A model generated the notes under the pieces. The model saw only the letters and a list, made by a program, of their open reading frames with translations, did not search any database and was not told the origin of the DNA. A stretch of DNA of 50,121 bases from Lautropia sp. (GTDB lineage Bacteria > Pseudomonadota > Gammaproteobacteria > Burkholderiales > Burkholderiaceae_E), in the NCBI GenBank assembly GCA_030532425.1, contig JAUNLD010000015.1, positions 1 to 50,121 of the forward strand. The letters are read 5' to 3'. The translations under genes and the position numbers were made by a program. Shown one piece after another: positions 23,870-28,703 of the stretch; within the stretch, counting starts at the first letter, position 1, and each line of letters opens with the position of its first letter.

Positions 23870-23875
23870 TTGACA

Positions 23876-23923
23876 ACGCTTTCGATAGCGTTACAGATCA
23901 GATATGGGCGCTACATCTTGTGT
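23876..23923. promoter_or_regulatory. Pair of NrdR-like boxes upstream of nrdHIEF
   Basis: ACGCTTTCGATAGCGT (23876-23891) and GCGCTACATCTTGTGT (23908-23923) match the NrdR-box consensus ACACWATATATWGTGT at 11 and 12 of 16 positions. The first is almost perfectly palindromic. They are 16 bp apart (32 bp centre to centre), the spacing known for the ATP/dATP-sensing repressor NrdR. A TTGACA hexamer (23870-23875) directly abuts the first box. The boxes lie 40-90 bp before the predicted transcription start. Confidence 0.65.
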
Positions 23924-23930
23924 AGGGGGC

Positions 23931-23958
23931 TGGACGGATGACGGCCTTTGGGTACAAT
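23931..23958 (+). promoter_or_regulatory. Promoter of the cobalamin riboswitch / nrdHIEF transcript
   Basis: TACAAT (23953-23958) is a five-of-six -10 box; TGGACG (23931-23936) is a four-of-six -35 at 16 bp spacing. The predicted start, about 23965, coincides with the first base of the aptamer P1 stem, which supports the call. An alternative TTGACA at 23870-23875 lacks a good -10. Confidence 0.6.
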
Positions 23959-23964
23959 GCCGTT

Positions 23965-24371
23965 CATCGAGGTTCTTCGGGGGTGATCGCCCCGAGGATG
24001 AAAAGGGAAGCCGGCCGGGGGCCGCTTCGGTCACGCCTTCGGGTGTGGTGTGAGGCGCTCCCGGGTGGTGTCTGCTGCCACAGGGCCGGAAGGGCCTGGC
24101 AGGTGGGGACACTTCAAGCCGGCGCTGCCCCCGCAACTGTACGCGGAGAGCAAGGCTGGAAGCAGGGATCGACCCCTGCCAGACCGACAGGGCTGGCGCC
24201 TGGGTGAGGATCGCTGCGGATGCCACTGGGCCTGATGTCGGCCCGGGCATGCCTGATGGATGGCGGCGTCCGATGGAGGATGTTGCCCCACGGGGATGGC
24301 CGGATCGGCACGTGGGCCTGGGAAGGTTCCGGCCATGCATCGACCCGCAAGCCAGGAGACCTGCCTCGATG
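23965..24371 (+). promoter_or_regulatory. Cobalamin (B12) riboswitch controlling nrdHIEF
   Basis: All core elements are present in order: GATGAAAAGGGAA (23998-24009), CTGCCCCCGCAACTGTA (24125-24141), GCCACTGG (24222-24229), GGGAAGG (24320-24326) and the B12 box AGCCAGGAGACCTGCC (24350-24365). The ends close as P1: CATCGAGG (23965-23972) pairs perfectly with CCTCGATG (24364-24371). The element binds adenosylcobalamin or a related corrinoid and normally lowers expression when it is abundant. At 407 nt it is long, because about 90 nt separate GCCACTGG from GGGAAGG. It precedes a B12-independent ribonucleotide reductase, not a B12 gene. Confidence 0.93.
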
Positions 24372-24375
24372 ACTG

Positions 24376-25172: not shown

Positions 25173-25212
25173 GCGGGCCGTGGCCCGTGGTACCGCTGGG
25201 GTCGGGGGTGTG

Positions 25213-25245
25213 CCGCCCTGTCGGGCCTGCGGTGCGGCAGGGCGG
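25213..25245 (+). other. Intercistronic hairpin between nrdI and nrdE
   Basis: CCGCCCTG (25213-25220) pairs with CAGGGCGG (25238-25245) in the 209-bp gap between nrdI and nrdE. It has no T tract. It could separate expression of the small NrdH/NrdI proteins from the reductase subunits. Confidence 0.35.
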
Positions 25246-25381
25246 GGGCACGGGTCTGCCGTGGGTGTCGTGGCAATGTATGGCCGCAGGGGCGTGGTGC
25301 TTCTGCGGCCTTTGAACGAATTTTCTTGAAATCGTCTGGAAGGGGCGGCCTGGCTTTGGCGGCACCCTTCGTGCAGGGAGA

Positions 25382-27553
25382 ATGCAGGTGGCTGCAAGCA
25401 GTGTTGTCGAGGTGGATGCCGAGGTTTCGGAAGACGGAAAGCCGGCGCTGGATTATCACGCGCTGAACGCGATGCTGAATCTGTACGATGCAGAGGGCAA
25501 CATCCAGTTCGAGGCCGACCGCATGGCGGCCCGGCAGTATTTTCTGCAGCACGTGAACCAGAACACGGTGTTCTTCCACAATCTGGACGAGAAGCTGCGC
25601 TATCTGGTGGACGAGGGCTATTACGACCCCGAGGTGCTGGACCAGTATTCGCGCAATTTCCAGCGCCGCATCTGGGACGAGGCCTATTCGCGCAAGTTCC
25701 GCTTTCCCACCTTTCTGGGGGCGTTCAAGTACTACACGTCGTACACGCTGAAGACCCGTAACGGTCAGCGTTATCTGGAGCGCTTTGAAGACCGGGTGGT
25801 GATGGTGGCGCTGACGCTGGCGCGTGGCGATGAGCAGCTGGCGCTGCGTTTCATGGACGAGATCATCTCGGGCCGTTTCCAGCCGGCCACGCCCACCTTC
25901 CTCAATGCCGGCAAGTCGAGCCGGGGCGAGCTGATCTCGTGCTTTCTGCTGCGCCTGGAAGACAACATGGAGAGCATCGGCCGCAGCATCAACTCGGCCT
26001 TGCAGCTGTCCAAGCGCGGAGGCGGTGTGGCGCTGATGCTGACCAACCTGCGTGAGCATGGCGCACCGATCAAGGGCATCGAGAATCAGTCGTCAGGTGT
26101 GATCCCGGTGATGAAGCTGCTGGAGGATTCGTTCTCGTATGCCAACCAGCTGGGCGCCCGGCAGGGGGCGGGGGCGGTCTACCTGAATGCCCATCACCCC
26201 GACATCATGCGCTTTCTCGACACCAAGCGCGAGAACGCCGACGAGAAGATCCGCATCAAGACGCTGTCGCTGGGGGTGGTGATTCCGGACATCACCTTCG
26301 AGCTGGCCAAGCGCAATGTCGACATGTACCTGTTTTCGCCGCATGATGTCGAGCGGGTGTACGGCGTGGCGTTTTCGGACATCTCCGTCACCGAGAAGTA
26401 CGAGGAGATGGTGGCCGACAAGCGCATCCGCAAGAAGAAGATCAATGCGCGTGCCTTCTTCCAGACACTGGCCGAGATCCAGTTCGAGAGTGGCTATCCG
26501 TACCTGATGTTCGAGGACACGGTGAACCGGGCCAACCCGGTGGCGGGAAGGATCACGATGTCGAACCTGTGCTCCGAGATCCTTCAGGTGAACGAGGCCT
26601 CGACCTTCAACGACGATCTGAGCTACCGGCACCTGGGTACCGACATTTCCTGCAATCTGGGGTCGCTGAACATTGCCATGACGATGGACGGCCCGGATCT
26701 GGGGGCAACGGTGGAAACGGCCATCCGTGCGCTGACGGCGGTGTCGGAGATGTCGGCCATCAACAGCGTACCGTCGGTGCGGCGGGGCAACGACGAGGCG
26801 CATGCGGTGGGCCTGGGGCAGATGAACCTGCACGGCTTTCTGGCGCGTGAGCGCATCCATTACGGCAGCCGCGAGGGCATCGACTTCACCCGGGTTTATT
26901 TTGCAACGGTGGCTTACCATGCCCTGCGGGCCTCGTGCCTGCTGGCGCAGGAAAAGGGGCAGCGCTTTGCCGGTTTTGAAGACTCGACGTACGCTGATGG
27001 CAGCTTTTTCGAGAAATACGTGACGCGCGACTGGCTGCCCGAAACGGCCGAGGTGAAGGCGCTGTTCGAGCGGCAGGGCATTGCGCTGCCCACCCGCGAG
27101 CAGTGGGCTGTGCTGCGCGACGAGGTGATGGCGCACGGGCTGTACAACCGCAATCTTCAGGCGGTGCCGCCCACGGGGTCGATCAGCTACATCAACCATT
27201 CCACCTCGTCGATCCACCCGATCGTCTCGAAAATCGAGATCCGCAAGGAGAGCAAGGTGGGGCGTGTGTATTATCCGGCGCCCTTCATGACGAACGACAA
27301 TCTGGCGTATTTCCGCGATGCCTACGAGATCGGCCCGGATGCGCTGATCGACACCTATGCGGCGGCCACCGAGCATGTGGATCAGGGGCTGTCGCTGACG
27401 CTGTTCTTCCCGGCCGAAGCCACCACGCGCGACATCAACCGCGCGCAGATCCGGGCCTGGAAGAAGGGCATCAAGACGATCTATTACGTGCGCCTGCGCC
27501 AGGCAGCGCTGGAAGGTACCGAGGTGCAGGGCTGCGTGTCGTGCACGCTGTGA
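25382..27553 (+). CDS. nrdE: Class Ib ribonucleoside-diphosphate reductase alpha subunit NrdE
   Basis: The 723-residue catalytic subunit converts ribonucleoside to deoxyribonucleoside diphosphates. Visible residues are the redox cysteines C187 (GELISCFLL) and C424 (SCNLGSLN), the catalytic N395/C397/E399 in SNLCSEI, and the C-terminal relay pair C718/C721 in GCVSCTL that accepts electrons from NrdH. No N-terminal ATP cone precedes the catalytic core, as usual for class Ib. AGGGAGA is too near the ATG at 25382 but well placed for the GTG at 25388, so the true start may be two codons later. It follows nrdI by 209 bp and precedes nrdF. Confidence 0.95.
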
Positions 27554-27707
27554 GCACGGCACCGGGAACAAGGCCGGAACTGGGCCGCCAGGCGCTGAAA
27601 AGGGGTCTTCGTCCGCGTCAGGACGGGGCCGGGGAATGGAATCATGCCTGCATGCGGGCATGGACAGGAATGGTGCTGCAAGGCACGCGAAGAAAGAGAG
27701 GCAGGCT

Positions 27708-28703
27708 GTGAACGCAGGTGCAGAACAACAGGGTGAACTGAAGCTGAGGCGCGAGGTGCCGTTGGCCATCAACTGGAACCGCCTTCAGGATGACAAGGAT
27801 CTTGAGGTCTGGAACCGGCTGACGGCCAATTTCTGGCTGCCCGAAAAGGTGCCGCTCTCGAACGATGTGCAGAGCTGGGGTACCTTGCGTCCCGAGGAGC
27901 AGACGCTGACGATCCGGGTGTTTACCGGGTTGACGCTGCTGGACACGATCCAGAACACCATCGGCGCGCCAGCCATGCTGCCCGATGCGCAGACGCCGCA
28001 CGAGGAGGCGGTGCTGACCAACATCGCCTTCATGGAGGCGGTGCATGCGCGCAGTTATTCGTCGATCTTCTCGACGCTGTGCTCGACCAAGGAAGTGGAC
28101 GAGGCCTTTCGCTGGTCTGAAGAAAACCCGCAGCTTCAGGCCAAGGCCCGCCTGATCCTGGACGAGTACGACGCTGCGGCCGATGCGCAGAAGCGCAAGA
28201 TCGCCAGCGTGTTTCTGGAGAGCTTCCTGTTCTATTCGGGTTTCTATCTGCCGATGTACTGGTCGAGCCGGGCCAAGCTGACCAACACCGCCGACCTGAT
28301 CCGCCTCATCATCCGTGACGAGGCGGTGCATGGTTATTACATCGGCTACAAGTTCCAGCGTGCCCTGGCGAAGATGTCCGAGGCCGAGCAGACGCGGCTG
28401 AAGGATTTCGCCTTTTCACTGATCTTTGATCTTTACGACATCGAGGCGCAGTACACCGAGTCGCTGTACGACCGCATCGGCCTGACCGAGGATGTGAAGG
28501 CCTTCCTGCATTACAACGCCAACAAGGCCTTGCAGAATCTGGGTTACGAGGCGCTCTTCCCGCCACAGGCCTGTGAAGTCAATCCGGCCATTCTGGCCGC
28601 GCTGTCGCCGGACAGCGAGAACCACGATTTTTTCTCGGGCAGCGGTTCGTCCTACGTGATCGGCAAGGCTGTGGCCACCGAGGACGAGGACTGGGATTTC
28701 TGA
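27708..28703 (+). CDS. nrdF: Class Ib ribonucleoside-diphosphate reductase beta subunit NrdF
   Basis: The 331-residue ferritin-like subunit holds the dimetal-tyrosyl radical cofactor. Ligands fit the family spacing: D79, E110, H113, E171, E205 and H208, with radical tyrosine Y117 in EAVHARSYS. The C-terminal ...EDEDWDF tail is the peptide that docks on NrdE. A GTG start at 27708 is chosen because AGAGAGG lies eight bases upstream; an ATG at 27660 would add unconserved residues. It is the last gene of nrdHIEF and converges with the DUF3482 gene 67 bp away. Confidence 0.94.

Follow-up and report, generated by a model that had tools for sequence, protein, structure and literature searches.

Why should the genes of a class Ib ribonucleotide reductase be preceded by both a cobalamin riboswitch and binding sites for the regulator NrdR? 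This question is raised by the nrdHIEF operon on contig JAUNLD010000015.1 of Lautropia sp. (GCA_030532425.1), of which a stretch of 50,121 nt, termed the window in the following, was analyzed on the forward strand. The genome is assembled in 125 contigs (3.12 Mb; completeness 88.8%) and, judged from its sequence, belongs to Lautropia or close kin; the nearest named NrdE is that of Lautropia dentalis (90%), in agreement with the betaproteobacterial host assumed in an initial annotation of this DNA. We consider it likely that an adenosylcobalamin-responsive OFF switch and an NrdR operator control nrdHIEF, that they spare the class Ib enzyme while the class II enzyme NrdJ works, and that the switch acts at the level of the leader on translation.

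A cobalamin riboswitch directly precedes nrdHIEF

Scanning the window with cmscan against Rfam revealed a single match above a gathering score, the cobalamin riboswitch aptamer RF00174 at 23953-24382 (+ strand; 47.1 bits, gathering score 31.5, E 8.9e-9). The match covers the whole model (positions 1-189) and ends upstream of nrdH-nrdI-nrdE-nrdF, exactly the arrangement put forward in the initial annotation, for which the Rfam model had been named as the check. Within the alignment lie the B12 box core AGCCAGGAGACC (24350-24361, +) and the conserved core GCTGCCCCCGCAACTG of the L5 region, both of which we take to be cobalamin riboswitch motifs. The latter is exact in the window; the former is exact in the window and in four of the six other Lautropia leaders compared (L107 to L112, n = 7 with the window) and absent in L108 and L111. 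Adenosylcobalamin is the presumed ligand. Immediately after the B12 box, a GC-rich hairpin of 14 pairs can form (24375-24406), the sequence of which is not common to the other Lautropia leaders.

The operon was identified on the + strand by NCBIfam models, and all four products scored above the respective cut-offs: NrdH (24515-24739; TIGR02194, 93.8 bits, cut-off 85.75), NrdI (24750-25172; TIGR00333, 145.2 bits, cut-off 74.65), the class Ib large subunit NrdE (25382-27553; TIGR04170, 1205.8 bits, cut-off 750) and the class Ib small subunit NrdF (27708-28703; TIGR04171, 481.6 bits, cut-off 355). The longest open reading frame of nrdF runs from 27636; its residues 43-355 align with structurally characterized class Ib NrdF chains and homology begins at residue 43-44, therefore translation probably starts at GTG 27708. 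In the initial annotation, the ligands of this NrdF had been read as suited to Mn.

The same genome encodes NrdJ and NrdR

The source genome was searched for further reductases. The NrdJ probe PF17975, which matched in one of 14 control genomes, gave no match and missed nrdJ; therefore, PF02867 was used. This search recovered two reductase large subunits, NrdE and a class II NrdJ on contig C53 (TIGR02504, 572.9 bits, cut-off 399.95), the enzyme that the initial annotation had predicted from the leader. NrdJ is a putative user of adenosylcobalamin. A search for NrdR, proposed at the same time, was equally successful (contig C112; TIGR00244, 185 bits, cut-off 124.65). No NrdD was found above cut-off in six Lautropia genomes including the source genome, with weaker matches in G001 and G002. 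CbiC, an enzyme of B12 synthesis, is encoded in all six Lautropia genomes tested. Furthermore, the source genome contains two additional cobalamin riboswitches, one located before a TonB receptor and the other before an ABC set comprising a binding protein, a FecCD permease and an ATPase.

A pair of NrdR boxes lies upstream of a predicted promoter

NrdR boxes were scored with a matrix trained on one pattern-picked box pair from each of L107 to L111; neither the window, including its pair at about 23679, nor the extra pairs of L107 and L111 entered the training, and L112 is without a strict pair. Box 1 (23876-23891; 15.9 bits) and box 2 (23908-23923; 17.3 bits), to which no strand was assigned, are spaced by 32 bp from start to start and reach 33.1 bits as a pair, compared with 16.4 bits for the next-best pair in the window and 14.7 bits for the best of 20 Markov sequences of 50 kb. 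Tandem NrdR sites with a spacing of 32 bp are described in the part of the literature covered here (PMC4428469). A sigma-70-like promoter is predicted at 23931-23958 (+; TGGACG-16-TACAAT, 9 of 12 matches); it is the only such site in 23600-24560, where 0.1 were expected. The initial annotation had put the box pair upstream of the promoter, and it lies upstream of the predicted one. A third, single box at 23709-23724 (no strand assigned) outscores every other single box of the window (17.5 bits). Its distance to box 1, which lies downstream, is 167 bp, and at a spacing of 30-33 bp it has no good partner (best pair 16.4 bits); it could serve in looping or belong to another promoter.

A loose-pattern box pair was present in six of the seven Lautropia leaders (window and L107 to L111), and one canonical box was seen by eye in L112. 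Additionally, the region upstream of nrdJ has its own NrdR-like pair (24.3 bits with a matrix including the window; 32 bp apart), the first box being located 209 nt before the assumed nrdJ start codon.

Folding points to a possible expression platform that pairs the nrdH start region

As a new detail of this leader, we propose an expression platform in which a hairpin termed P13 competes with a downstream helix that sets the pairing of the nrdH start region. P13 (24416-24434, +) has a stem of 5-7 pairs and the loop L13 GCGGUGGGC (24421-24429), which is exact in all five riboswitch-bearing leaders of the genus and lies 93-116 nt before nrdH in each of them. By inspection, L13 can pair, with one bulged base, with L5 GCCCCCGC (24127-24134, +), its proposed kissing partner. 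In the free minimum-energy fold of the window, 24426-24439 is paired with 24477-24490 and P13 is broken; this anti-P13 helix (24426-24490, +) is the proposed ligand-free state. When P13 was enforced, the nrdH start region paired with upstream sequence.

Accessibility was calculated as the mean unpaired probability of positions -18 to +3 with P13 free or enforced, and 60 linker shuffles were made per leader. It fell upon enforcing P13 in four of the five leaders, namely from 0.56 to 0.42 in the window, 0.58 to 0.45 in L109, 0.54 to 0.45 in L110 and 0.61 to 0.43 in L112; these drops were equalled by 0, 0, 4 and 0 shuffles, respectively. Short of proof, the calculated folds support an OFF switch acting on translation.

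A hairpin over the nrdH start region is also proposed (24471-24511, +; 24471-24476 with 24506-24511; shuffle P 0.248 in the window). In each of the five riboswitch leaders it ends 0-3 nt before the start codon and has its 5' arm between -37 and -44; a weaker form occurs in the two leaders that lack the riboswitch. The median shuffle P of this hairpin was 0.25 in 36 riboswitch-bearing, mostly Rhodobacterales leaders (Lautropia L004 included; 6 of 36 below 0.05), 0.80 in 29 mostly Rhizobiales leaders and 0.76 in nine leaders without riboswitch, a trend which is suggestive only.

A short leader peptide starting at an ATG in P13 (window, L109, L110 and L112), with a frame open to the nrdH start, was considered and rejected: it has no Shine-Dalgarno sequence, and by eye its frame is not constant.

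The arrangement is widespread in Alphaproteobacteria

The 80 class Ib loci nearest to the window were compared. Riboswitches were called by motifs, with at most four mismatches in the core and at most two in the B12 box, and three of the 65 loci called in this way were also checked with Rfam. Together with four loci recognized by Rfam (L011, L018, L056, L073), a cobalamin element was present upstream of 69 of the 80, for the most part alphaproteobacterial loci; neither motifs nor an Rfam match were found in the other 11. Class Ib is therefore a common riboswitch partner in Alphaproteobacteria, and the initial annotation erred in regarding it as an unusual one. One of these riboswitch-nrdHIEF loci (L031) comes from a record labelled Nocardioides marinus, and its NrdE groups with Rhodobacterales; either a mislabelled sample or a transfer would account for it.

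Six leaders with unrecognized nrdH (L006, L023, L049, L056, L082, L083) were skipped when L13 distance, start-region hairpin and NrdR pairs were scored. NrdR-like pairs scoring 10 bits or more were found in 40 of 64 riboswitch-bearing leaders as compared to 28 of 640 Markov controls, and in none of nine leaders without riboswitch. An L13-like match, one mismatch being allowed, was present in 17 of 33 other leaders with a short distance between B12 box and nrdH, ten of them exact to GCGGWGGGC; the matches lie 86-125 nt before nrdH, close to the Lautropia range. No match at such a distance was seen in 29 long leaders, mostly from Rhizobiales.

The NrdJ search covered the genomes of 50 of the 80 loci. 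NrdJ was above cut-off in 45 genomes, namely 38 of the 39 with an upstream riboswitch (Lautropia dentalis included) and seven of the 11 without (Fisher P 0.006, with rows that are related by descent and not independent).

Lautropia leaders differ in the presence of the switch

Within Lautropia, the riboswitch precedes nrdHIEF in five of seven leaders (window, L107, L109, L110 and L112). Rfam and motif checks of the leaders L108 (genome G005) and L111 (G004) gave no riboswitch upstream of nrdHIEF; there, the start of the first NrdR box is only 175 and 129 bases, respectively, from nrdH. The nrdE match of G004 runs to the contig end. NrdJ was above cut-off in eight of nine genomes of the genus, including G004 and G005. 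The exception, G003 (81% complete, 720 contigs), has a single reductase match, which looks NrdA-like.

A tree of NrdE was calculated from 51 rows (window, 48 of the 80 loci, L089 and L090; L091 and L092 were left out) with a quick method and SH-aLRT support only. The four Lautropia rows grouped as a single clade (100, starred). This clade lies inside a larger starred group (99) of 22 rows, the other 18 of which are Paracoccaceae or Roseobacteraceae according to their record titles. The NrdE of Comamonas kerstersii (L056), another member of the Burkholderiales, appears as a long branch. Lautropia NrdE is nested within Rhodobacterales, which makes this order the probable donor of the operon. The simplest account would have operon and leader transferred together, the tree itself covering NrdE.

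A class Ib NrdE was detected at E 1e-200 in three of 300 Burkholderiales genomes, all three of the genus Lautropia; a further Lautropia genome (G008) escaped detection owing to its fragmented nrdE. In addition to an NrdJ above cut-off, a second, longer large subunit is encoded in each of the six remaining genomes of the family; in G326 it is of NrdA type by model (NF005544, 1602 bits), and in the other five this name was given from score and length. We therefore lean, with some reserve, towards a history in which an alphaproteobacterial nrdHIEF operon, with B12 switch and NrdR operator already attached, took the place of the family's NrdA-type class I reductase in Lautropia, and some species later lost the switch and kept NrdJ. 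On this history, the genus would offer a natural series in which one and the same operon stands with the B12 switch in some members and without it in others.

Discussion

The features described above can be joined into one mechanism. NrdR would limit transcription of nrdHIEF according to the nucleotide pool. Adenosylcobalamin would bind to the aptamer, L13 would dock on L5 and the P13 hairpin would hold; the anti-P13 helix would then be blocked, the nrdH start region would be paired and the class Ib enzyme would not be made. Under these conditions, NrdJ would supply deoxyribonucleotides in its place. Without B12, the anti-P13 helix would form and nrdHIEF would be translated. Aptamer, boxes and operon are present in the window, and NrdJ and NrdR are encoded in the same genome; from these and from the calculated folds we infer that adenosylcobalamin turns the operon off, that it does so at translation and that the class Ib enzyme and NrdJ divide the work. 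Repression of nrdHIEF by B12 is likewise predicted from the sequence.

Several observations weigh against this explanation. Upon enforcing P13, L107 behaved in the opposite way, accessibility rising from 0.36 to 0.45, and 50 of 60 shuffles reached its value. The start-region hairpin taken alone is near chance in the five leaders (P 0.248, 0.36, 0.23, 0.082 and 0.03; combined 0.03). The NrdR boxes sit upstream of the predicted promoter rather than over it; in Propionibacterium acnes, according to the part of the study considered here, some NrdR boxes are also found away from active promoters (PMC3848588). Brucella rhizosphaerae (L073) carries a riboswitch (3634-3852) before nrdHIEF and had no NrdJ above cut-off in the genome searched. 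Conversely, seven Paracoccus-group genomes encode NrdJ and have no riboswitch before nrdHIEF, and the Lautropia genomes G005 and G004 have kept NrdR-like boxes and NrdJ with no riboswitch. Finally, Comamonas kerstersii, which is not known to be among the 300 Burkholderiales genomes, has a class Ib locus with a riboswitch (3909-4144, 64.5 bits); therefore, Lautropia is not the sole case in this order.

The aptamer might bind a cobamide and yet act by transcription termination, intrinsic or Rho-dependent, instead of hiding the nrdH start. Rho is involved at btuB of Escherichia coli. The 14-pair hairpin behind the B12 box would suit such a mechanism, as would the long linker of about 80 nt between P13 and the start codon, and strong inverted repeats, of different sequence, are visible by eye at this place in L107 and L109 too. 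However, the hairpin sequence of the window is not shared by other leaders, and no terminator-like site on the + strand was found between aptamer and nrdH; the three such sites in 23600-24560 are one at 23759-23779 (+) and two on the - strand. We regard termination as unlikely, although it deserves attention. A decaying riboswitch, the low score of which would reflect loss of B12 control, appears distinctly less probable. It is true that the window aptamer scores low for its genus (47.1 bits compared with 90.3-111.3 bits in four relatives) and that L108 and L111 have none. However, the low score goes with two peripheral stems much longer than in the relatives, and these inserts fold better than shuffled sequences (z -3.13 and -4.97), while no change is seen in the core GCTGCCCCCGCAACTG, in the B12 box or in L13.

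A purpose other than sparing the class Ib enzyme, for example tying nrdHIEF to a general response to B12 shortage, is suggested by Brucella rhizosphaerae, which keeps the switch with NrdJ undetected. This is the least probable of the alternatives and would be surprising, as NrdJ accompanies the riboswitch in all other riboswitch-bearing genomes examined and G326, from a sister genus, encodes NrdJ and carries a riboswitch of this family ahead of its NrdA-type gene. The preferred explanation thus remains a B12-dependent choice between the class Ib enzyme and NrdJ. Lautropia lives in the human mouth, and its close relatives with and without the switch offer a direct test of the benefit of such an enzyme choice.

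How does this locus compare with known systems? The alphaproteobacterial riboswitch-nrdHIEF loci (Paracoccus, Roseobacter group, Rhizobium, Agrobacterium, Brucella) resemble it in the cobalamin element, often in the NrdR-like pair, and in a genome that encodes NrdJ; they differ in their host, which here is a betaproteobacterium. In many of them box 1 runs, by eye, over TTGACA or TTGACG, whereas the boxes of the window lie upstream of the predicted promoter, and the 29 mostly Rhizobiales leaders are longer and lack an L13-like match at the Lautropia distance. In G326, which is grouped with Lautropia in one family, a cobalamin riboswitch (L133, 4582-4789; 126.7 bits) ends 158 nt before the start codon of the NrdA-type gene. 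The riboswitch family is the same as in the window and NrdJ is present, but the enzyme is not class Ib and the leader has no NrdR-like pair (best 2.3 bits). Therefore, a second kind of class I enzyme in this family seems to be under the same logic. It was found in one of six sister-genus genomes; in the other five, riboswitches are on other contigs than the NrdA-type gene. The B12 riboswitch of Streptomyces nrdABS reportedly silences a B12-independent reductase when the class II enzyme works; that reductase is said to be of class Ia, in an actinobacterium.

A partial search of the literature gave no published description of class Ib nrd genes under a cobalamin riboswitch. Isozymes of B12-dependent enzymes are named as a target class of cobalamin riboswitches in the part of an RNA-regulon survey considered here (PMC3766115). 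NrdJ does not always bring a switch, since Caulobacter crescentus has NrdJ and, in the portion of the report covered, B12 riboswitches on btuB and metE only (PMC6538847). Closest in kind is nrdAB of P. acnes, for which the sections covered report an NrdR box at the promoter, an annotated cobalamin riboswitch in the 5' untranslated region and a genome that also encodes NrdJ. According to the proposal made there, nrdAB goes down with B12, and nrdJ then provides much of the reductase (PMC3848588). As far as these sections go, an NrdR box combined with a cobalamin riboswitch is already in print, and the arrangement is not new in kind. The P. acnes system differs in that it concerns nrdAB of an actinobacterium with a single NrdR box; with the Lautropia locus, B12 control of class I reductases would reach a genus of Betaproteobacteria and a class Ib enzyme, in a genome that also encodes NrdJ.

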